NCBI GenBank assembly: GCA_937924525.1
Contig: CALDSU010000002.1
Coordinates: forward strand, 186,001 to 250,000
Direction of reading: 5' to 3'
DNA length: 64,000 bases
From: an uncultured Bryobacteraceae bacterium
Lineage (GTDB): Bacteria > Acidobacteriota > Terriglobia > Bryobacterales > Bryobacteraceae
The translations under genes were made by a program, and so were the position numbers. How positions within the stretch are numbered: the stretch's first letter is position 1; each line of letters begins with the position of its first letter. Below are positions 40,019 through 51,404 of this stretch, piece after piece. Under the pieces are notes generated by a model. That model did not search any database, had not been told where the DNA came from, and saw only the letters and a list, made by a program, of their open reading frames with translations.

Positions 40019-40467
40019 TCAACCTGACTGCGCGCCTCCCCACTCGTGCACCGCCTCATACAAAGCCAGGATGTTCGCCGTCGGCGTGTTGGGTTGCAGG
40101 TTGTGACACGGCGCGACGATGTAGCCCTTGCCGCTCCCGAAGATGCGAAGGTTGTCCCATACTTCGCGGCGCACATCCGCGGGCGAACCGAAGGGCAGCG
40201 TACGTTGGTCGCCACCTCGCGGGTCCCGACGCGCCAGATGCTGTACAGCGAATTCAGGTACCAGTTGGTTTCGCGGGCGCGGGGGTGAAGCGGCGCGACG
40301 CGGACCAGGCGGTCGACGCCGAGGCGGCGCCACAAGTCGCGTTCCGCCGGGCAATTCAGCTCTCGCTGGAGCCGGGCCGTCACCTCGGCCGCACCCCAGT
40401 AATCGCAGGGGACGCGGTCGGGCTGGCGGCCTTCGCAGACCGCCAACCAGCGTTCGCGCGGCGTCAC
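40019..40467 (-). pseudogene. URO-D family gene with its middle deleted
   Basis: The first ~89 codons read as a URO-D N-terminus (VTPRERWLAVCEGRQPDRVP, YLNSLYSIWRVGTREVA). Near 40200-40215 the frame changes. The other frame then encodes a typical URO-D C-terminus (LPFGSPADVRREVWDNLRIF, YIVAPCHNLQPN, NILALYEAVHEWG). Intact relatives are about 340-370 residues, so about 200 residues are missing and the halves are out of frame. The GTG overlaps the MFS stop as GTGA, showing it was once the last translated gene of the operon. Sequencing or assembly error cannot explain the missing core unless a collapse occurred. Confidence 0.82.
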
Positions 40468-41672
40468 CGGCGGTCCCTCAGCATCAGGTTCACGGTGAGA
40501 GCGGCGATGGGGTGCAACGCGCCGGCCAGCATGAACGCCGCGGGATAGCCAAAGGCCGTAATGACGAGCGCGAGCAGTTGGGCAAACAGCGCGCCGGCCA
40601 GGCTGCCGGCTGTGCCCATCATCCCGACCACGGTTCCGGTGGATCCCGCCGGCGACACATCGGCGGCCAAAGTGGCGATGTTCGCGGCCCAGCACTGGCT
40701 GAGCAGCGTGGCCAGGCAAGTGAGCGCGATCGCCAGCGCCACCGAATGCACCAGGCCCACCAGCGCGCCCAGGGGAGCCAGACAGCCAACGCCCGCCAGC
40801 ACCAGCAAACGGGCGCGCTTGGCCGGCAATCCCCGCCGGACCAACCCATCCGACAGCGCCCCGCCGCCGACCGCCCCGAGGTCGGCGAACAGGAACGGAA
40901 TCCAACCGTAGTAGGCGATTTCGGTCAGGTTCAGATGCCGTTCGCGCTGCAAGTAGTCGGGCAGCCAGAACAGGTAGAAATACCAGACCGGGTCGCTGGC
41001 CAGCCGGGGCAGGACCAAGCCCCAGACCTCGCGCCGCCGCAGCAAGCGTCCCCAGGGTTCCCGGGCGGGTTCCGCGGCCGCCGCCGGCTGACCGCCGCCG
41101 TCCCCGGCGCTGGGCGAGCGGTACGCCCAGAACCAGAACGGCAGCCAGACAAAACCGACCAGCCCGGGAATCACGAAAGCCCAGCGCCAGCCGAAGTGCA
41201 GCGTCAACAGCGCAATCATCGGCGCGGCAATCAGCGCCCCCACCGCGCTGCCCGAGGAGAAGAAGCCCGTGGGCAGCGCGCGCTCCTTGGGAGGGAACCA
41301 CTCCGCGCACGCCCGCACGCCCGCCGGAAAGATGGCCGGTTCGCCGACTCCCAGCAAGAAGCGGAACGCCGCCAGTGAAATCGCGTTGCGGGACAGCGCC
41401 GTCAACATGGTCGCCGCCGACCACCAGGCGATCGCGAGCGCCGCGCCGAGCCGCACGCCGATCCGGTCGATCAGCCGCCCGCCGAGCGAGTACATGATGG
41501 TGTACGGCGCCAGAAACGCCGTCACCACGTTGGCGTAGTCCTGCTCACTCAAATTCAACTCGCGGCGCAGCAGCGGACTCAGGACGGAGAGCGTCTGCCG
41601 GTCGACGTAGTTGATGGCGGTGGCCACAAACAACAGCGTGGCCACCACCCAGCGCAACGAGCGGTATGACAT
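40464..41672 (-). CDS. MFS transporter, hexuronate/sugar-acid (ACS) type
   Basis: A 402-residue protein with about twelve hydrophobic segments. It opens with WVVATLLFVATAINYVDRQT, the ACS-family first helix, and has GGRLIDRIGVRLGAALAIAW in the loop 2-3 position and LGVGEPAIFPAGVRACAEWF in helix 4. Homologues carry hexuronates or related acids by proton symport. It lies three bases after the FAD oxidoreductase and four bases into the URO-D pseudogene, so it belongs to the GH38 operon. Likely role: import of the sugar released outside. Confidence 0.9.
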   Translation of the reverse strand: MSYRSLRWVVATLLFVATAINYVDRQTLSVLSPLLRRELNLSEQDYANVVTAFLAPYTIMYSLGGRLIDRIGVRLGAALAIAWWSAATMLTALSRNAISLAAFRFLLGVGEPAIFPAGVRACAEWFPPKERALPTGFFSSGSAVGALIAAPMIALLTLHFGWRWAFVIPGLVGFVWLPFWFWAYRSPSAGDGGGQPAAAAEPAREPWGRLLRRREVWGLVLPRLASDPVWYFYLFWLPDYLQRERHLNLTEIAYYGWIPFLFADLGAVGGGALSDGLVRRGLPAKRARLLVLAGVGCLAPLGALVGLVHSVALAIALTCLATLLSQCWAANIATLAADVSPAGSTGTVVGMMGTAGSLAGALFAQLLALVITAFGYPAAFMLAGALHPIAALTVNLMLRDRR

Positions 41673-41675
41673 GGC

Positions 41676-42944
41676 TCAGAGCGCCAGGATCGCACCCTGG
41701 GCGGCCAAACGGTCCTGCACGCGGGCGATGGGGAGGCGGCGCGCAGCCAGCCCGGAATCGTGCGCCAGGGCGGCCAGGGTGCCCGCGGCCTGGCCGAGAG
41801 CCATGGCGGTTCCGCTGACGCGCGTCGAGCCATGCGCTTCGTGCGTCGCCGAGATGCAACGCCCCGCGGTGAGTAGGTTGTCGAACCCGCGCACCATCAG
41901 GCACCGCGCCGGAATCGGATACGGGGCGGGCGGCTCGTCCTTGTGGGGATGCACGCCCACCCGGCCGTCGGCGGGATGGATGTCGATCGGCCAGCTTCCC
42001 AACGCGATGGCATCGGCGCAGGGGCGGCCCTCCCGCACATCGGCGGCGGTGATCTGGTAGTCGCCCAGGATCCGGCGCGTCTCCCGCACCCCGATCTGGC
42101 AGGCGGACGCCAGCAGGTACGCGTCGCGGAACGGCGGGCCGGCCTCGCGCAGAATGTTGAGAATCGAGATCATGTCCCGGCGGCCCTGGCGCTCCGCGCG
42201 GGACAGGTCGGCGGTGTTCGTGCCGTCGCCATAGAGCCGGGTGCAGTTGGCGCTGACTTCCCCGTCGCGGATCCGGATGATCCACGGGCCGCCGTACTTC
42301 GGCGCCAGCCCGGCGGCGTAAGCGGCGTCCATGGCGCGCCGCGCGGCCTGCTCCAGTTCATCCCAGGGCACGCCGGGCTGCACGCCGCCGATCCGAAAGT
42401 GCATGGACATGGTTTGGAGCTGGCGGTCCATCTCGAATTCCGCGCCGGCGAAGGCGGAGACATCGCCGTCTCCGGTGCAATCGACGAACTGGCGGGCGCG
42501 CAACCGCCACAAGCCTTCCTTACCCGCCGCGATGACGGCGGTGACGGTGTTTCCTTCCACTTCCGCCGCGGCGGCCATCAGGTGAAACAGCACCTCGACG
42601 CCAGCTTCTTCCAGCAGGCAGTCGGCGGCCAGCTTGAAGGCCTCAGGATCGAACGTGACGCACTCGGGCGGGTTGTCGGGCGTCGCCATGCCGCCAGCCG
42701 CCAACATCCGGCCGACGATCTCGCGGCCGACGCCGCCGACCACGAACTGGCTATAGTTCCGGCAATTGCGCAGGCCGTCCAGCGTATGAACCAGCGAGCC
42801 AACGCAGATGCCGCCGCAGAATCCGTAGCGTTCGAGCAGCGTCGTGCGCGCGCCATTGCGTGCCGCCGCCAAGGCCGCGGCGACGCCCGCCGTACCTCCC
42901 CCGCACACCAGGACGTCGCATGCGTGTTCTTTCCCCACGCGCAT
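41676..42944 (-). CDS. FAD-dependent oxidoreductase (FAD_oxidored family)
   Basis: A 422-residue flavoprotein. The FAD fold is DVLVCGGGTAGVAAALAAAR, then LLERYGFCGGICVGSLVH; the distal FAD motif is NLLTAGRCISATHEAHGSTR followed by VSGTAMALGQAAGTLAALA. These enzymes are widespread in Acidobacteriota sugar loci, presumably oxidising a sugar or its acid, but no substrate is proven. GAGGAGG lies eight bases before the ATG. No signal peptide is visible. It is between the GH38-like and MFS genes with short gaps of 26 and 3 bases. Confidence 0.88.
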   Translation of the reverse strand: MRVGKEHACDVLVCGGGTAGVAAALAAARNGARTTLLERYGFCGGICVGSLVHTLDGLRNCRNYSQFVVGGVGREIVGRMLAAGGMATPDNPPECVTFDPEAFKLAADCLLEEAGVEVLFHLMAAAAEVEGNTVTAVIAAGKEGLWRLRARQFVDCTGDGDVSAFAGAEFEMDRQLQTMSMHFRIGGVQPGVPWDELEQAARRAMDAAYAAGLAPKYGGPWIIRIRDGEVSANCTRLYGDGTNTADLSRAERQGRRDMISILNILREAGPPFRDAYLLASACQIGVRETRRILGDYQITAADVREGRPCADAIALGSWPIDIHPADGRVGVHPHKDEPPAPYPIPARCLMVRGFDNLLTAGRCISATHEAHGSTRVSGTAMALGQAAGTLAALAHDSGLAARRLPIARVQDRLAAQGAILAL

Positions 42945-42970: not shown

Positions 42971-45900
42971 TCAACGCGCCGGCGTAGTGGCCTGCGCGAG
43001 CGCGGAGCGGGTCTGCCGGTGGCCAGCCCAGTCTTCGGAGAGAACCCGGTAATAGTAAGTCCTCCCGGGCACGAGACCCGTATCCATGAAGGTCTCCAGG
43101 AAGTAGCCGCTGGGACGAACGACAGCCACCGGCCGCGCCCCTTCCATCGCAAAATCGGGACGCTCGCCCCGGAATACGAGAAAGCGCGCGAGGTCGGGGT
43201 CGGGGCTCTTCCGCCAGTAGACGATCAGGCGGTCCGCCGCGCGCCGCACCACGCCCAGCTCCTCCACCGGGCGCGGCGGCGATGTGTTCGCCTGCGCGGT
43301 GCGCGCGCGCACCTTTCCGGAAACCGGACCCTGCTGGTTGGCCGGCGTTACCGCGGCCACAACATAGTGGTATTCGGTGTCGAGTTTCAGCCCGGTGTCG
43401 GTGAAGGTCGGGTGGGTGGCGCGGGCGGCCAAGGAGTAAGCGGTGGGTGGCGCGCCGGGATCTTCCGAGCGATAAATGTTGTAGACTGAGCCCGGCACGG
43501 GTTTCCAACGCAGGCGGATGCTCTGATCGGAGACCGCTTCCGCCGTGACGCCCTCCACCGCCGCCGGACCGGGACCGCGGTCGAACAGCCGGACCGTGGC
43601 GAACGCGAAGGGGCCAAGGTCCAAAGTCACCGAGCGGTCCCGGACCTCAAGCGGCTGCTGGTCGTTCTCCACCAGGTCGCATTGCATGGCGCCCGTGATC
43701 GGGAAGCGGGGTAGCTGCACCCGCACCGGGCCGGCTTTTCCTTCGGTCTCCACCAACCGCAGGATCCAGCCGCGGCCGGGCTGTTCGCTCTGCTTGAACG
43801 TGACCAGGTGCACGTGCGGCACGCTGACGGAAGCGAAACTCGCCTGGTCCGCCGGCAGGGCGCCCTGCTGACCGGCCGGGAGCCGCCGCGCCGCCAGCGG
43901 ACTCGCCACCGACCAGCCTAGCCGTGTCGCCGCCCCGCTAGTCCAGTCACCCGCATGCGAAGTGAACGAATACCGCAGCGTCGCGTGGTAGTCCTCCGGC
44001 TGCAAGGCCAGCAAGCTGGCCATGCGGTTGGAGTACGCGTAGCTGTACAGATGGGAGTTGGCGGGCTGATAGTCGATCGAGAACCGGTTGTACCGGATCT
44101 GCCCGAAGTTCACCGTAAACGCCTCGACCGGCGCCATCGTCACGCCGTAGTCGCGGTTGCTGACATCCACCCAGCGATTCACCATCAGGTAGTCGTGCGA
44201 GCCCCAGCGCAACTGGTCGTGGTAGGGACGCACCACGCCGCCCGGGGCCTCGGCGCGCGCCTGGAAGCTGTCCACGCGGATCGGGAAGGCATAATACAGG
44301 TTGTCGCGGTAGCGATCTTCATAGCGGTCGGAGTAGAGCGCCTGCATGGCGCGCAGGTCGTTGACGATATCGATCCGCTTCAATCCGTCATACAGGATCA
44401 CGGTCTGGGTAATGCGGCCGCCGATCTTTGGGTCTTCAATCCGGGCGGTCATCTCGGCGCGGAGCGGGCCGACGCGACCTTCCAACGCCTGGGCCGCGGC
44501 CGGGGAGTGCTCGAAATCTCCCGGCTGGGGATGCAGACCCGGGTAGCGGTAGAAATCCGGATCGCGATCCTTGTGCACGTAGACGATTTGGTTGAAGCGT
44601 CGGCTGGCGTTCTGATCTACCAGTTCGCGCTTCAGTTCCTTGTCGAAGATGCTGCGGATCGTGCCGGTGGCGCGGTCGAAAGCGATCTCATAATACTGGT
44701 TGGCCAACCGGTCCGCAGCCGCGGTCAGGGCTGGGGAGGCCGGCGGCGGCGCCGCGGCGCCGCCGCCGATGCGGTACACCTTGTAGCCGAATGCCGGCAC
44801 GCGCTCGGCCACGAAGACCGTCCGGCCGTCCGCCAACTCCTGGGTGACCACCGCTCTTCCGGTGGCAGGATCGACCAGACCAGCCACGCCCGATTCCACT
44901 TCCACCAGGTCCGTGCGTTCGTGCGCCAGCGGATTGAAGACCGTCAGCACGGGCTGCGCGCCGGTGCGGATGTGCCGGGCGAACGCGGCGAAACCGCGGT
45001 CGAACGCTTCCCTCGCGCCGTCGAGCGCGCGCCGCGCCTCGTGTTGCTTCACCCACTGGGCGTTGAAAACTTGAAAGTCGTTCGCCCGGGGCAGCGTCGG
45101 CCAGGAGTGCTCGTCGTAGTCAAACAGCCGGGTGAACGTCCGCTCGATCAGCGCCGCCGGAGGCAGAAACGCCGGGTCCAGCAAGCTGGCGATGGCGGCC
45201 AATCCCTCCGCCAGCGGCAGGAGCCGCGCCGCGCGCCGCTTCCAGCCCTGCGATTCCGGGTCGATGGAGGCATAGTCGGCGGAGAAATTGTTCAAGTCGC
45301 CGGTGAGCGACGGAATCTCCGCGCCGTACTTGTGCTCCAGGTACTCGAAGAACCGCTCGGGGTGGTCCGTACGGATCTCGGGATAGCGGTAACGGCTCGC
45401 CCAGTCGCGCAGGGCGCCGGCGTTTGAGAAGGGAATCTCGTGATCGGTGTACTCGGGATTCACCAAAGCGTCGTAAGGATACGGCCCCAGCGTGGCGCCG
45501 GTCTCGATGCCCTTCAGGATGCGATTCACATTGTCGGCGCCTGATTCCAGCAAACCTCCATAACCACGCGCCTGGCCAAACCAGAAACTCATGCCATATC
45601 CGCTCCGCCAGGCGTAGAGCACGCGGCTCTTGCCGTTGGGCGCCACCCACCAGAAGATGGCGGGCAACCCGGTAGTGCGATAGTCGTTATTTCCGCCGGT
45701 CCGCCAGCTTTGCCCCCAGCGCGCCAGGTACCGGAACCCCGCGTCCGCAATCGCCTGGCAACCTGCCCAGGACATGCTGGGGTTGTCGACGATAAGGAAG
45801 GTTTTCAGGTCGAGCCCGAAGCGATCCTTGGCTTCGCGCCGGCCCGGGTAAGTCATGCGGGCCAGTTCTTCGTAATCCATCCAGTGCGCGTGGACGCCGT

Positions 45901-46525
45901 GCGGAGTGCCGAAGATGCCCATGCGCCCCGTTTTGAGGCGCTTTTCCACGATTTCGCGCCAGGCGGCCTCCGAGCGCTCTTCCAGGTAGTTGCGCTGAAA
46001 CAACAGACTCTCCATCATGTAGTGGTAACCGGGCGTGGCGCCGCCGCCCGGCCCGCTCAGGCCGCGCGCCAGGTCGATGAAGGTGGCGATCTCGCGCTGC
46101 TTGTGGAAGATGTAGTTCTCGTAGCCAAGGTCCTCATGGGAGGACTTCATTAGGTAGACCTTCCAGTGGCGCTGCGGCTGCCAGGACTGCTCCCACGAGG
46201 CGAGCACGTTCCCCTCGCCTTCCACCAGCGAAACCGTGACGAAGCGGGGTGATGAGATGTCCGGAATCAGCGCCCGCACGCGCGTGACGCCCGGCGCCAG
46301 CGTGACCTTCTCGCGGTCTCCGGTGTCCGCGCCATCCACTTGAACGCGCACCTCGCACGCGAGCGGCTGGGCGCTCCGGTTGACCGCCTGCACCCAGGCG
46401 ATCTGCCGCAGCGGTTCTTGTCTTGGGAACAGGACCGTAGGCTCGACGGAGAGGATCTCGAGGGTGGCGGCGGGGGCGAGAACCGCGCACGCCAGCAGGA
46501 TGTTAAGCCGAAAGAGGGAAAGCAT
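42971..46525 (-). CDS. Secreted GH38-like glycosidase with C-terminal fibronectin III domains
   Basis: An 1184-residue exported protein with signal peptide LNILLACAVLAPAAT. A short beta domain is followed by a GH38-type barrel: KSSHEDLGYENYIFHKQREI, where H and D match the two zinc ligands of the HxHxD motif, and LKTFLIVDNPSMSWAG with the nucleophile-aspartate candidate. Beta-sandwich domains follow, then two fibronectin type III repeats (IRLRWKPVPGSVYNIYRSED; YYRVLSEDWAGHRQT). GH38 enzymes are mostly alpha-mannosidases; the altered first histidine (Ser) suggests a different sugar. It is the first enzyme gene after the TonB receptor. Confidence 0.82.
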   Translation of the reverse strand: MLSLFRLNILLACAVLAPAATLEILSVEPTVLFPRQEPLRQIAWVQAVNRSAQPLACEVRVQVDGADTGDREKVTLAPGVTRVRALIPDISSPRFVTVSLVEGEGNVLASWEQSWQPQRHWKVYLMKSSHEDLGYENYIFHKQREIATFIDLARGLSGPGGGATPGYHYMMESLLFQRNYLEERSEAAWREIVEKRLKTGRMGIFGTPHGVHAHWMDYEELARMTYPGRREAKDRFGLDLKTFLIVDNPSMSWAGCQAIADAGFRYLARWGQSWRTGGNNDYRTTGLPAIFWWVAPNGKSRVLYAWRSGYGMSFWFGQARGYGGLLESGADNVNRILKGIETGATLGPYPYDALVNPEYTDHEIPFSNAGALRDWASRYRYPEIRTDHPERFFEYLEHKYGAEIPSLTGDLNNFSADYASIDPESQGWKRRAARLLPLAEGLAAIASLLDPAFLPPAALIERTFTRLFDYDEHSWPTLPRANDFQVFNAQWVKQHEARRALDGAREAFDRGFAAFARHIRTGAQPVLTVFNPLAHERTDLVEVESGVAGLVDPATGRAVVTQELADGRTVFVAERVPAFGYKVYRIGGGAAAPPPASPALTAAADRLANQYYEIAFDRATGTIRSIFDKELKRELVDQNASRRFNQIVYVHKDRDPDFYRYPGLHPQPGDFEHSPAAAQALEGRVGPLRAEMTARIEDPKIGGRITQTVILYDGLKRIDIVNDLRAMQALYSDRYEDRYRDNLYYAFPIRVDSFQARAEAPGGVVRPYHDQLRWGSHDYLMVNRWVDVSNRDYGVTMAPVEAFTVNFGQIRYNRFSIDYQPANSHLYSYAYSNRMASLLALQPEDYHATLRYSFTSHAGDWTSGAATRLGWSVASPLAARRLPAGQQGALPADQASFASVSVPHVHLVTFKQSEQPGRGWILRLVETEGKAGPVRVQLPRFPITGAMQCDLVENDQQPLEVRDRSVTLDLGPFAFATVRLFDRGPGPAAVEGVTAEAVSDQSIRLRWKPVPGSVYNIYRSEDPGAPPTAYSLAARATHPTFTDTGLKLDTEYHYVVAAVTPANQQGPVSGKVRARTAQANTSPPRPVEELGVVRRAADRLIVYWRKSPDPDLARFLVFRGERPDFAMEGARPVAVVRPSGYFLETFMDTGLVPGRTYYYRVLSEDWAGHRQTRSALAQATTPAR

Positions 46526-46640: not shown

Positions 46641-49600
46641 TCAGAAAATGACCTTCAAACCCAACTGTCCTTCGCGGTTCCCGCTCTTGGCCACCACGCG
46701 GCCAAAGTTCGGCGTGTCTACCGTGGTGCCGGGATCGTTCCACATCGGGTGGTTGAGGAAGTTGAAGAACTCGGCGCGGAATTGCAGGTTGACGCGCTCG
46801 GTGATCAGGGTGTTTTTGAAGAACGACACCGTCCAGTTGTTGGTGCCGCGTCCGCGGAGGTCCGGCGAATAGCGGGAGATGTTGCCGAAGGTGAACGGTG
46901 CGGGTTGGGAGAAGACGCTGGTGTCAAACCAGCGGTCCGTGGTGCGCTGGCTCTTGGGGAGCTTGGCCGATTGACCGTTGTTCAGTGGCCGCGAGCCCGC
47001 GCCGAAACCGATCTGGTTGGCCGGGTTAGTGATCTGGAGCGGCAAGCCGCTCTGGAACGAGGTGATGCCATTCACCTGCCACCCGCCGAGCAAGAGGTCG
47101 GCGGCCCGGGGGATGGAGTTCAGGTACGGCTTACCCCTGCCGACCGGGAGTTCCCACAAGTACGAGATCACCAGCACGTGGGGCACGTCGATCGGCGACA
47201 AGCCGCGCTCGGCACGCAAGTTGTAAACATTCGCCACGCCTGCGCCGCGCCAGTAGCGCTCCCCGACATTGCCGATGTTCTTCGACCAGGTGTAGTTGGT
47301 GAGGAACGCGATGCCATTGGCAAAGCGCCGCTCGAGTTTGGCCTGCAGCGAGTTGTAGCTCATGCTGCCCTGGGTGGTGTAATTGTTCTGTACCCCGGTG
47401 AAGTGAGGGAAGGGGCGCTCGAGCTGACCGCGGCTGAGCGTGGCGGCGGCGAAGGGTCCCCGGTCGACCAGGCCCCGGAACGGGTTGGGCACCTGGCTGT
47501 TCAAAGCGGCGCCGGCGCTATACTGCTCAGGCCGCAGTTGGTTCAACTGCAAGTCAATCGCCTGCTTCACCCCATGCGAACCGACATACCCCACGTCGAG
47601 CAGAAACGACCGGATTTGATACTGGAGGCCGACATTGTATTGCTGGCTGTACGGAATCACGATGTCGCGTAGTTGCGAGGTCACGCTCTGGCCGATTAGC
47701 GTGTCGGCGCCCAGCGCGTTGCCAACCGGTTGGTTAAAGCCGTCCGGGAAGGGATTCCGCAGAAACCGGTAGGGCGTTAGCCCGCCATCGATGGTAGCGA
47801 CGAATGGCGTCTCGCCTTCGTAGCCGGCCGCGCCGAACACCAACTGTCCATAGCCATTGACCAGCGAGGGCTGGTAGAAGATGCCGTAGGCGGCGCGCAG
47901 CACCAACGATTCGCGGAACTTGTAGGCGAGACCCACGCGCGGGCCCCAGTTGTTGCGGTCGACCGGGTTCCGGTACCGCGAGGCGATGTCCTTGCCCATA
48001 AACTGCAATCCGCCCACCGCGCTCGCCAGGCGCGGCGTCGCGGAGTTGCGCACGGTGAGGTCGAAGGTCGTGGTCCGGTTGAAGCGCTCGGTGAAAGGAG
48101 TTTCCAGATCATAGCGGAGTCCCAGGTTCAGAGTCAGGCGCTGATTGACCCGCCAGTCGTCCTGGAGGTAACCGCTGGTGTAGAAAAATTGAACCGCCAC
48201 CGAGGCCGGAATGCGGTTGGTGCCGCTGGCGGGCGTTCCCAGCAGGAACGACGCCATGCTCCAGCCTTCCAGCGCGTTGGCCGAGAACGGGTCGCGCTGA
48301 GTCCAGGTCTGGTTGAAGCTGAACGAAGGCGTGATGTCGGAAGCCTGAATGTCGAAGTAGCGGAACACGCGGAAGTCGCCCCCGGCCTTGATCGTGTGGC
48401 CGCCCATCATTTTCGTGATGCTACCTTGTCCTGCGTGCGTGATGTCGCCCCGCCGCAGGTAGTCGCCGTTGGATCTTACTCCCAGCCCCTGGTAGTTTTG
48501 GATGGTGAGAGGCGGAAAAACCGCGTAGAAGACGCTGCTGGCAAGTTCGCGGGGCCAACCCAAGCCCACCAGATCAAAGCCTCCGGACTGCGGCAGGCGG
48601 CTCAGCAACTGGCGGTTGACCGAATAGCGCATGTCCAACAGCGTCGTGGGGGAGAGCGTGTGCGTGTACCCCACCACCGCATTCTTCGGAAAAATGAAGA
48701 GATCGGATCCACCACCCCGCGGGGAGAACGATCCGGCGGGGTTTCCGGGCCTCAGGCAGGTCTGGCAGGCGGGGGTGGCGCCGAAGTAGTTCGACGCTCC
48801 GCCTCCCTGCTCGCTCTGCGAGTAGCGGGCAAACAGGCGCCGGTTGTCGCCGATGTTCTGGTCGATCTTGACAGCCCATTGATTCTGAATATTCCGGGCC
48901 GAGTCCGCCGACAGGAAGTTCTGGATGTTCGTGAATGAGTCGGCGGGGGCGACGTTGGGATTCGGGTAGTAACCCACCGCGTTGCGCGCCACCGGGTCGA
49001 GGCGCGAAGCGGGAATCGTGTTGCCCGCAAACGGCGCCCGCGCGTACCGGTTGGCTTGTCCCGGCACCGGAGCGGTGGATAGGGGATCGAACACCTGGAT
49101 CAGGCGTCCGCTACGGTCTCGCCGTTCGGAAAAGTTCCCCGCTTTCTCCAACTCCGTGGGCACGGAGAGCAGATTGCGCGCAGGCATCACATCGCGGTAT
49201 CCCTCGTAGTTCGTGAAGAAGAACGTCTTGTTCCTCCCGTCGAACAGCTTGGGAATGAACACCGGTCCGCCGGCGGAGTACCCAAAGGTGTGCACGTTCA
49301 GGAAGTCGCGCGTGACGCCGTTTCGGTTATTGAGCCAGGTGTTCGCGTTGAGAACCCGATTCTTCCAGAAATCGTACACCGTGCCGTGCACCGCGTTGGT
49401 CCCGGACTTGTACGTCGCGTTGATCACCGCGCCGCCGGTCCGGCCGAATTCCGCGCTCATGGCGTTGGTGTGAATCTTAAACTCTTCGATCGCGTCGATC
49501 GTCGGCACGATGGACGCGGCGTTCATGTTGGCCAGAATCGCCGTAGCGCCGTCGAGCATGAATTCGTTCGAGTTGGTCATGCCGCCATTGGAACTCCAGC

Positions 49601-50147
49601 GCCCGAACGCCACGGAACCCGAGCGCGCCGGAGCAACGCCCGAACCGTGGTCGACTACGCCCGCCACCAGTCCCACCAGTTGCAGGACATTCCGGTTCGA
49701 AAGCGGAAGGTCCACGATCTTCTTGTTGTCTACTACCTGGCCCACGGAGGACACTGTGGTCTGAAGCAGAGGAGTCTCGCCGGTCACCTGGACCGTCTCT
49801 ACCACGTCGCCGGGCGTCAGGATGATGGTGACTTCCAGGCGCTGGCTGATGTCCAGTTTCAATTCACTGCGCCGGAAGCGCTTGAACCCCGCGGTTTCCG
49901 CGGACAGGTCGTACGTGCCGGGCGGCAGCAAGGGGACTTCATAGAAGCCGCGCTCGTTGGACACGGTGAAGCGTTCCGTGTTCGTGCGGACTTCCCTTAG
50001 GCTGATTCTCACGTTGGGGACTACGGCGTCCGTCGAGTCTTTCACCGTGCCCAGAATCGTTCCGGTGAAGGTCTGCGCCGCGCCGTTCAGCGCGGCAAGC
50101 GAAATCAGACAAGCGACGCAGCCAAGGCGTTGACCAAGCGTCATCAT
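46641..50147 (-). CDS. Oar-like TonB-dependent receptor with carboxypeptidase-regulatory N-terminus
   Basis: A 1168-residue outer-membrane protein. Signal peptide (RLGCVACLISLAALNGAAQ), then a CarboxypepD_reg domain (GTILGTVKDSTDAVVPNVRI, RGFYEVPLLPPGTYDLSAET), a plug (LPLSNRNVLQLVGLVAGV, FKIHTNAMSAEFGRTGGAVI) and a large beta-barrel with many aromatic strand ends. It ends in a C-terminal strand GQLGLKVIF with terminal phenylalanine, as outer-membrane barrels do. Such receptors import oligosaccharides or peptides using TonB energy. GGAGG lies just before two consecutive ATGs. The divergent promoter and operator directly upstream point to repression by the adjacent regulator. Confidence 0.93.
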   Translation of the reverse strand: MMTLGQRLGCVACLISLAALNGAAQTFTGTILGTVKDSTDAVVPNVRISLREVRTNTERFTVSNERGFYEVPLLPPGTYDLSAETAGFKRFRRSELKLDISQRLEVTIILTPGDVVETVQVTGETPLLQTTVSSVGQVVDNKKIVDLPLSNRNVLQLVGLVAGVVDHGSGVAPARSGSVAFGRWSSNGGMTNSNEFMLDGATAILANMNAASIVPTIDAIEEFKIHTNAMSAEFGRTGGAVINATYKSGTNAVHGTVYDFWKNRVLNANTWLNNRNGVTRDFLNVHTFGYSAGGPVFIPKLFDGRNKTFFFTNYEGYRDVMPARNLLSVPTELEKAGNFSERRDRSGRLIQVFDPLSTAPVPGQANRYARAPFAGNTIPASRLDPVARNAVGYYPNPNVAPADSFTNIQNFLSADSARNIQNQWAVKIDQNIGDNRRLFARYSQSEQGGGASNYFGATPACQTCLRPGNPAGSFSPRGGGSDLFIFPKNAVVGYTHTLSPTTLLDMRYSVNRQLLSRLPQSGGFDLVGLGWPRELASSVFYAVFPPLTIQNYQGLGVRSNGDYLRRGDITHAGQGSITKMMGGHTIKAGGDFRVFRYFDIQASDITPSFSFNQTWTQRDPFSANALEGWSMASFLLGTPASGTNRIPASVAVQFFYTSGYLQDDWRVNQRLTLNLGLRYDLETPFTERFNRTTTFDLTVRNSATPRLASAVGGLQFMGKDIASRYRNPVDRNNWGPRVGLAYKFRESLVLRAAYGIFYQPSLVNGYGQLVFGAAGYEGETPFVATIDGGLTPYRFLRNPFPDGFNQPVGNALGADTLIGQSVTSQLRDIVIPYSQQYNVGLQYQIRSFLLDVGYVGSHGVKQAIDLQLNQLRPEQYSAGAALNSQVPNPFRGLVDRGPFAAATLSRGQLERPFPHFTGVQNNYTTQGSMSYNSLQAKLERRFANGIAFLTNYTWSKNIGNVGERYWRGAGVANVYNLRAERGLSPIDVPHVLVISYLWELPVGRGKPYLNSIPRAADLLLGGWQVNGITSFQSGLPLQITNPANQIGFGAGSRPLNNGQSAKLPKSQRTTDRWFDTSVFSQPAPFTFGNISRYSPDLRGRGTNNWTVSFFKNTLITERVNLQFRAEFFNFLNHPMWNDPGTTVDTPNFGRVVAKSGNREGQLGLKVIF

Positions 50148-50191
50148 GGACGAGCCTCCTGACCCAGGGGACTGGGACCGTTATCAGCGCA

Positions 50192-50220
50192 AATATATAC
50201 CGGTTAATTACCGGAGTCAA
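50192..50220 (-). promoter_or_regulatory. Promoter of the TonB receptor operon
   Basis: Read on the minus strand: TTGACT (50220-50215), a 17-base spacer, TATATT (50197-50192). Each box matches the sigma-70 consensus at five of six positions, with ideal spacing. The whole spacer is occupied by the palindrome described next, so a bound protein would block RNA polymerase. Confidence 0.75.
50200..50214. promoter_or_regulatory. Candidate operator, 15-bp palindrome CCGGT-N5-ACCGG
   Basis: CCGGTTAATTACCGG has exact 5-bp arms around TAATT. It lies entirely between the -35 and -10 of the receptor promoter and 14 bases before the -35 of the regulator's own promoter. The adjacent regulator has a GntR winged helix, whose dimers bind such spaced palindromes. 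No second copy was seen in the window. Confidence 0.7.
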
Positions 50221-50228
50221 CAATGATC

Positions 50229-50256
50229 TTGCACTTTTCTTCCCGCCGGGTACAAT
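50229..50256 (+). promoter_or_regulatory. Promoter of the GntR/LacI-type regulator
   Basis: TTGCAC (50229-50234), 16-base spacer, TACAAT (50251-50256). Both boxes are close to consensus. Transcription would begin about eight bases before the ATG at 50271, so the upstream in-frame ATG at 50223 is before the promoter and is unlikely to be the real start. Confidence 0.6.
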
Positions 50257-50270
50257 GGCAGCTTGGAGAT

Positions 50271-51404
50271 ATGCGCAAGAGTGCAGCGGTGCTGAAACGG
50301 GAACAGATCACAGCGCAGCTTGCGTCCCGTTTGGAGAAAGGCGTTTATCCGGAGGGGAGCTTCTTGCCGCCGGAGCGCCAACTAGCTGAAGAATTTGGGG
50401 TTTCCAGGCCAACCCTGCGAAAATCCATGGCTCCGCTCTTGAAGGCCGGGCTGCTGGTCAACCAGCAGGGCGTCGGCACCAGAGTGGGTTCGAAAGCGGT
50501 CGAAGGCAGCTCGGCCCAAGCCGTACGGGACGGCTGGCGGGTGATCGCCCTGCTTTTACCAGACATTACCAATCGCTTCTATGTCGAACTGACCGAGGCC
50601 GTCGAGTATCACGCCCTCCAACGGGGTTACCAGTTGCTCCTGTGCAATTCCCGCCACCAGTTAGCGGTGGAAGAAACGCACCTCCGGCAACTCGCCCAGC
50701 GGCGGGTCGACGGCGTCATCCTGGCGCATGATCCCCACCTGGCCTTTCCGACGGCCATGGCCGTGCTACGCGAGGCGAGGATTCCCTTTGTGCACCTGTT
50801 CAGTTCGCCGGCGCACGCCTTGGCCGATACCGTGATGCTGGATGAGCGGGACGGCGCGGCGCAGGTGATGCGGTACCTGTTTTCCCTGGGCCACCGGCAG
50901 ATTGCGTTCTGCCAACCGGTGGCAGGGGAGAACCCGCATCCGCGGGAGCGCGCCTACCGGGAGTTGATGGCGCAGCAGCAGTGCCCGGTTCTTCCGCACT
51001 TCGTGCTGCCGTATCGCGATTGGGATGACGCGGCGTGCGCCGCCGCTCTGGAACGTGTCTTTGCAAGTCAGCCGGCGCCCACCGCCTTTTTCGCCGGCAA
51101 TGACCGTGTGGCGCTGGTGCTGCTCAAGAATCTGTCGATTATGGGCCTCGATGTTCCGAACGATGTTTCCGTGGTGGGATTCGACAACCTGCGATTCACC
51201 GAACACCTGCCGGTGCCGCTGACCACCGTCGACCAACCCAAACGGGAGATGGGCCGGCGTGCGGTGGAGTTGCTTGTCGAGCGCATCGAGATCAGTCAGG
51301 ACCTTGCGCCGCGCACCGAGGTGTTCCGGCCGCACCTGGTGATCCGCAGTTCCTGCGCCATCGCGCCGCAGCGCGAACGCCACGTCGCGCTGGCCCTCCG
51401 GTAG
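50271..51404 (+). CDS. Transcriptional regulator, GntR HTH fused to LacI-type sensor (AraR architecture)
   Basis: A 377-residue protein. Residues ~5-75 are a GntR winged helix (LKREQITAQLASRLEKGVYP, LPPERQLAEEFGVSRPTLRK). The rest is a periplasmic-binding-protein fold of the LacI/GalR type (VIALLLPDITNRFYVELTEA, VDGVILAHDPHL, FFAGNDRVALVLLKNL, VSVVGFDNLRFTEHLPVPLT). This combination is that of AraR, which releases DNA when a sugar binds. The sensor ends in the usual domain of LacI members. It is divergent from the receptor operon with a palindrome between them, so it most likely represses it until the imported sugar is present. Confidence 0.92.
   Translation: MRKSAAVLKREQITAQLASRLEKGVYPEGSFLPPERQLAEEFGVSRPTLRKSMAPLLKAGLLVNQQGVGTRVGSKAVEGSSAQAVRDGWRVIALLLPDITNRFYVELTEAVEYHALQRGYQLLLCNSRHQLAVEETHLRQLAQRRVDGVILAHDPHLAFPTAMAVLREARIPFVHLFSSPAHALADTVMLDERDGAAQVMRYLFSLGHRQIAFCQPVAGENPHPRERAYRELMAQQQCPVLPHFVLPYRDWDDAACAAALERVFASQPAPTAFFAGNDRVALVLLKNLSIMGLDVPNDVSVVGFDNLRFTEHLPVPLTTVDQPKREMGRRAVELLVERIEISQDLAPRTEVFRPHLVIRSSCAIAPQRERHVALALR

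Follow-up and report, generated by a model that had tools for sequence, protein, structure and literature searches.

A phased pair of same-strand half-sites as candidate operator in the promoter of a TonB-type receptor gene divergent from a GntR-LacI regulator

In a stretch of 64,000 nucleotides from an uncultured Bryobacteraceae bacterium (the window), a gene for a regulator with a GntR-type head and a LacI-type sensor and a gene for a TonB-type outer membrane receptor point away from each other across 123 bases, which probably act as the control region of this divergent pair. We propose that phased half-sites on one strand form an operator within the receptor promoter, that the adjacent regulator binds there as a repressor, and that a ligand releases it; judged from recurrence at related loci, this is the likely reading. 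As part of the same joint reading, the recurring feature would be the phased direct repetition of two or three half-sites at a promoter, and not the 15-base palindrome that the initial annotation had named as the operator. The features concerned are, in window coordinates:

40464..41672, minus strand: MFS transporter (PF07690, domain scan)
41676..42944, minus strand: FAD-dependent oxidoreductase (PF12831, domain scan)
42971..46525, minus strand: glycoside hydrolase family 38-like protein with an fn3 domain, next gene in the putative receptor operon (domain scan)
46641..50147, minus strand: TonB-dependent receptor-type outer membrane protein (CarboxypepD_reg and OMP_b-brl_4), 1168 aa (Pfam, sequence)
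50192..50197, minus strand: -10 hexamer TATATT of the receptor promoter (sequence, promoter scan)
50214-50198, minus strand: 17-base spacer of the receptor promoter (sequence)
50215..50220, minus strand: -35 hexamer TTGACT of the receptor promoter (sequence, promoter scan)
50198..50203, minus strand: candidate half-site 2, CCGGTA, continuing into TATAT, partner of half-site 1 at 11 bp
50209..50214, minus strand: candidate half-site 1, CCGGTA, partner of half-site 2 at 11 bp
50200..50214, no strand: 15-base palindrome CCGGTTAATTACCGG, mostly the same bases as the half-sites, read as an inverted repeat
50229..50234, plus strand: weak -35-like TTGCAC toward the regulator, 3/6 match to TTGACA
50251..50256, plus strand: -10-like TACAAT toward the regulator (sequence)
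50271..51404, plus strand: regulator with GntR winged helix and LacI-type sensor, 377 aa from ATG 50271 (Pfam on the frame from 50223)

Read directly from the sequence, TTGACT-N17-TATATT on the minus strand faces the receptor gene, whose ATG at 50147 lies seven bases after AGGAGG. The two hexamers agree with the consensus at 10 of 12 positions, and this was the sole promoter-like site in the 801 bp scanned (0.1 expected in shuffles). Every element of this arrangement as initially described is present, including the palindrome in the spacer: its arms are perfect over 5 bp and it fills 15 of the 17 spacer bases. On the receptor strand the operator bases also form a direct repeat, CCGGTAATTAA/CCGGTATATAT, with a period of 11; in the window the palindrome and the direct repeat coincide because ACCGGT is self-complementary. 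The description as a near-consensus divergent promoter applies to the receptor side only, as TTGCAC of the regulator-directed TTGCAC-N16-TACAAT, 14 bases away from the palindrome, is a 3/6 match. The word TACAATGG at the regulator -10-like element also occurs shortly 5' of the regulator gene in two relatives, G105 and G142.

The regulator gene is divergent from the receptor gene, and Pfam domains confirm the GntR-type assignment of its product: PF00392 (1.4e-16, residues 26-88 of the frame from 50223) marks an N-terminal winged helix-turn-helix, and Peripla_BP_3 (PF13377, 1.5e-35) together with PF00532 (1.1e-21) a C-terminal sensor domain of the LacI/GalR type. PDB matches include the sensor chains of PurR and AraR. 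The frame opens at ATG 50223, six bases after GGAG, and ATG 50271 has a GGAG only two bases before it. Because of the relatives, the start is likely, although not certainly, ATG 50271; were ATG 50223 the true start, the proposed regulator promoter would fall within the gene. At 50213-50225, GGAG abuts the right edge of the palindrome, and a start at ATG 50223 would place the operator edge in the ribosome-binding site. Besides the receptor, the neighbours of the regulator are the GH38-like, FAD oxidoreductase and MFS genes, and no pentose enzyme was recognised at the locus.

The regulator clade, clear of the next matches, comprises 10 of 237 family genomes including the own genome and the truncated G110, and an order search with alignment A1 returned the same 10 in 257 genomes. 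In a phylum sample only the own genome carried a clade regulator (1/396), and a class sample (5/399) added G707, from another family, and the truncated G736; the regulators of G110 and G736 are cut by contig ends and were left out of the counts. Identity to the window regulator is 49-54% in the eight relatives of A1 and 55% in G707. In seven of the eight full-length family relatives the divergent gene is receptor-like and encodes about 1150-1180 aa; for two of them (G246 and G142) this is backed by Pfam scans. As in the window, FAD-oxidoreductase-like and then MFS-like starts occur in G246, G142, G115, G245 and G117, called by N-terminal sequence except in G246, for which there is a domain scan; in G105 and G106, PSD1/PSCyt-type genes take their place (domain scan for G106). 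We refer to the window and its seven receptor-bearing relatives as the eight receptor-linked regions, to these plus G707 as nine regions, and to the nine plus G124 as ten. In G124, the eighth family relative, the divergent gene is of PQQ type and not a receptor, which is why it is excluded from the counts of eight and nine. To keep G707, where a PhyH gene comes first, and yet drop G124 is uneven, and 7/10 is therefore the stricter figure below. The G124 region holds one GGT and one ACC, hence no pair, and the signal is absent from it. By eye, this region resembles that of G106 in GAACCAA-Y-GG-Y-CAA.

Two GGT on the same strand at 11 bp were found in six of the eight receptor-linked regions against 0.46 expected from 2000 dinucleotide-shuffle sets, statistics that ignore the shared ancestry of the regions; whatever the orientation and the offset (up to 33), no set had a pair in more than four regions. 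With G707 the count is 7/9, and with G124 it is 7/10, G707 being the only held-out case since the GGT core and the 11-bp offset were picked in the same eight regions that were later counted. The pair alone is common (31 of 639 100-bp bins of the window), and it occurred once in 54 control regions, which were taken upstream of the regulators of other relatives from the furthest in-frame start, a crude choice. All eight regions have TTGAC on the receptor strand, where 5000 mononucleotide shuffles gave an expectation of 0.69 and a maximum of 5; the opposite strand has it in none of the eight. TTGAC with an overlapping 11-bp GGT pair was found in seven of nine regions (7/10 with G124), with a shuffle mean of 0.016 and a maximum of 1 in 3000; within the 64 kb of the window this composite occurs once, at the operator site. 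Its seven loci represent five branches of the regulator tree, some forks of which are weakly supported: the window, G246, G245 with G117, G142 with G106, and G707. The half-site consensus is about YGGT(A/C/T)A, and half-site polarity relative to the receptor varies among the loci. An outward-facing inverted pair, ACC-N3-GGT, was also enriched (4/8 against 0.20 expected) and is not explained by the direct-repeat reading.

How the half-sites relate to the promoter differs between loci. In the window, G246, G245 and G117, the best receptor-strand promoter has a spacer of 17-18 bases, and both half-sites lie inside it. TTGACC of G142 and G106 is half-site and -35 element at once, and the second half-site lies 11 bp upstream; G115 has a similar layout with 10 bp between the two. 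G105 lacks the 11-bp pair and shows only ACC-N3-GGT, upstream of TTGACA. Matches to the -10 consensus range from 3 to 5 of 6, with 3/6 in G246, G105 and G106, and in G117 the -10 element ends 9 bases before the receptor ATG. The suggestion that the site is placed to block the receptor promoter is thus borne out as far as position goes: in 7/9 regions (7/10), the putative half-sites fall on the -35 element or the spacer of a receptor-strand TTGAC promoter. Position by itself may leave the sign of regulation undecided, and the adjacent regulator could be an activator or a dual regulator here rather than a simple repressor. We regard this as very improbable. Activation from within the -35/-10 core is unusual, half-sites lie on or within that core at seven of nine loci, and the core promoter of the window is already near consensus.

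The initial annotation took the operator to be the palindrome CCGGT-N5-ACCGG. Accordingly, a symmetric dimer on this palindrome in the spacer would block the receptor promoter, and the relatives would have drifted to other sites. The perfect arms in the window agree with this, as does G246, which carries GGT-N5-ACC twice; many GntR-family sites are, moreover, GT-Nx-AC palindromes according to a survey of the family (PMC4494728). GGT-N5-ACC is mildly enriched in the receptor-linked regions (2/8 against 0.20 expected, 0.0135 of shuffles). However, the window and G246 are the only two of nine regions that contain this core, compared with 7/9 for the direct 11-bp pair, and in both of them ACCGGT merges the two readings. 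The GT-N5-AC spacing also differs from that of AraR (N4, PMC4218819) and of most HutC sites (4 nt, PMC4494728). Furthermore, the pattern is common background in the own genome, and G707 retains the repeat with a broken dyad. We therefore judge the palindrome unlikely to be the operator, a claim that the related loci do not support.

Some distant GntR-LacI relatives do have palindrome-like words upstream, and these count in favour of a palindromic site. By eye, we noted CCTGTAATATCAGG (G015) and CCTGTATTGTCAGG (G022) before such regulators, and looser ones in G026 and G001 (loci L115, L118, L119 and L121), hinting that the wider GntR-LacI family may use inverted repeats. Nine distant regulators at 28-33% identity, of which eight carry a GntR-type head and G241 a LacI-type one, had no comparable array upstream when these regions, which are also among the 54 controls, were read by eye.

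G707 offered an independent look at the direct-repeat operator, as the prediction was fixed before this locus was read: the region upstream of the regulator, some 130 bp long, was expected to contain GGT twice at 11 bp, TTGAC in the opposing direction and a receptor gene pointing away from the regulator. The pair was found as predicted, 43 and 54 bp before the regulator ATG. The opposing TTGAC was found only beyond the predicted stretch of about 130 bp, in a distal array 216 bp upstream that reads TTGACA-ACCGGTATAGCATCGGTA-TATATA and contains an 11-bp pair. The receptor prediction was correct in part: PhyH comes first, followed near the contig end by a receptor-like N-terminus. The distal array is close to that of the window, but ACCGG has become ATCGG, so that the direct repeat is kept and the palindrome broken. 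With 466 bp, the control region of G707 is long. At about 1598-1661 of L188, the two arrays are separated by an insert whose ends, ATTCCCGCGAAAGC...GCTTTCGCGGGAAT, are inverted and which perhaps splits the control region.

From the elements, their positions and their recurrence we infer regulator binding, repression, ligand release and the extent of the operon as follows. The ligand-free GntR-LacI regulator would bind the two CCGGTA half-sites, which lie on one strand and are offset by one helical turn (11 bp). As these take up the spacer of the receptor promoter, RNA polymerase would be sterically excluded. A ligand, probably sugar-like, would free the regulator from the half-sites, and the receptor operon would then be expressed with the receptor, the GH38-like enzyme, the FAD oxidoreductase and the MFS transporter. 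The idea that the bound regulator might also touch its own promoter is plausible, as is autoregulation, because the best regulator-direction promoter begins on a half-site in G142, G106 and G115; this part draws on three relatives, the window palindrome ending 14 bases from TTGCAC.

Steric repression itself is ordinary; the unusual part for a protein of AraR architecture is the head-to-tail arrangement at one turn. To occupy direct repeats, a symmetric dimer would require either a linker that flexes or contacts between dimers. AraC binds its own direct repeats with swivelling-type DNA-binding heads on a symmetric dimer. Tentatively, and without favouring the idea, we suggest that this clade of GntR-LacI repressors may read head-to-tail half-sites one turn apart through winged helices that swivel on a symmetric sensor dimer or through stacked dimers, and that operator polarity may change by way of the self-complementary ACCGGT, which is direct and inverted repeat at once. 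Among the titles and abstract openings that searches of the open-licence PMC literature listed, none describes a GntR-LacI regulator with direct-repeat operators or examines operators of such receptor genes in Acidobacteria.

The initial annotation spoke of an AraR-like regulon. The likeness to AraR is justified for the domain architecture, as AraR of Bacillus subtilis likewise joins a GntR winged helix to a LacI/GalR sensor (PMC4494728), and it too has repressor sites in promoters. In addition, the AraR recognition residues E30, R41 and R45 are matched by E35, R46 and R50 of the window regulator, invariant in all nine rows of A1 (positions placed by spacing from the conserved Glu). The likeness does not extend to the operator. 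B. subtilis AraR sites are described as palindromes of the type At(T/A)tGTaCGTAcaa(A/T)T, that is GT-N4-AC, with eight boxes in the regulon (PMC4218819). By contrast, the window has GT-N5-AC instead of GT-N4-AC and CCGGT arms instead of TTGT/ACAA-like ones, YGGT half-sites direct at 11 bp, and a single site found, and the relatives have mostly direct YGGT repeats. R36, invariant in all nine rows of A1, occupies, when placed by the same spacing, the position of FadR Arg-35, which contacts G; AraR has Asn at this position (PMC4494728). An arginine at this G-contacting position fits YGGT half-sites rather than the TTGT of AraR.

Direct repeats are known from other GntR-type regulators. The E. coli NanR, of the FadR type, binds a (GGTATA)3 operator with three dimers cooperatively, for which it uses an N-terminal extension of 32 residues; it needs two or more repeats at defined spacing and sits downstream of the site of the polymerase (PMC8012715). 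The loci studied here also show same-strand GGTATA-like repeats at a fixed spacing, here 11 bp, in 7/9 regions (7/10), and GGTATA itself occurs in the window, G707 and G105; the likeness to NanR is one of the repeat word. In contrast to NanR with its alpha-helical sensor, the window regulator has a LacI-type sensor and, provided that translation begins at ATG 50271, only few residues ahead of the helix-turn-helix, and its repeats lie 11 bp apart inside the promoter and not downstream of the polymerase site. NagQ has TGGTATT direct repeats (PMC4494728) and, compared by repeat word, is similar to the window in its direct TGGT-type repeats; its sensor domain differs. Where a single GntR site stands between two divergent operons, it generally acts on both and is placed near the middle (PMC4494728). 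As expected for a divergent regulator-target pair with its operator on the core promoter, the candidate site overlaps the -35/-10 region of its target promoter in 7/9 regions.

The palindrome had further been taken to predict the binding motif of a new regulon, which the genome-wide searches did not support. CCGGT-N5-ACCGG has 46 sites in the 5.52 Mb genome compared with 32 for a reversed control pattern; 19 of the 46 lie outside genes as called by a crude codon-usage script. A regulon via this pattern was rejected on these counts, and one non-genic site, C1:33038, sits at the stop codon of the upstream gene. The palindrome alone, background-like in its own genome, is weak evidence. The exact repeat CCGGTA-N5-CCGGTA has one copy, at the window locus. 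With up to one mismatch there are 33 sites against 34 in the control, and among 30 fetched sites of this kind TTGAC was near none except the locus itself. The composite TTGAC-N1-4-GGT-N8-GGT-N-TA, a pattern drawn from the window site itself and searched in GGT polarity, occurs once in the 5.5 Mb genome, at the locus, and not in the control. As this composite occurs only once, the regulator looks like a dedicated local repressor rather than the head of a regulon in this genome. Across nine genomes, YGGTMA-N5-YGGTAA has 32 sites compared with 60 for the reversed pattern; six of the 32 are at regulator loci, and the flanks of 30 of the 32 were read by eye without gene calls. Among these, at least C66:68357 of G117 has an A/T-rich look and could be intergenic, and some relatives may possibly have a second target of this kind. 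Separately, the 17-mer TGGTCAGTATCTGGTAA at the candidate operator of G117 recurs unchanged in G115, at C143:11341-11357 (L139).

Ten of the 46 palindrome sites are the REP-like word CCGGTCTCCGACCGG or its complement, all outside the script-called genes. This REP-like family thus shares CCGGT-N5-ACCGG with the candidate operator, and the palindrome is a minus-strand hit in a terminator scan; the element could accordingly be a REP-like repeat, a terminator hairpin or a product of chance. All three appear highly unlikely. The REP-like copies have a middle containing G or C, whereas, alone among the 46, the window site has a middle made up of A/T only. As a hairpin the element scores poorly (-6.7 kcal/mol, z -1.06; 34 of 200 shuffles did equally well), and it does not stand at the end of any gene. 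The composite, moreover, is unique in the genome and recurrent at related loci. The dispersed intergenic REP-like word CCGGTCGGAGACCGG or its complement was seen in L008, L010, L016, L017, L105, L107, L110, L113, L114 and L090 (near 1459).

In the own genome, scoring 65 of 93 candidates gave 69 matches to the OMP_b-brl_4 receptor family, which correspond to about 65 genes; these figures are lower bounds. The phased operator would assign a candidate dedicated switch to one of these at least about 65 outer membrane receptors of the same Pfam family. It also offers a cheap and concrete test case for DNA recognition by a LacI-type dimer that carries GntR heads. For motif prediction it carries a warning: a perfect palindrome in one genome may be a disguised direct repeat if the half-site is self-complementary.

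A scan of genome contigs with the regulator returned one match, an unrelated LacI-type protein. In G105, C111:101072-101386 (in L083), within an open frame of 140 codons, is 63% identical to regulator residues 265-369 and is perhaps the remnant of a second copy.
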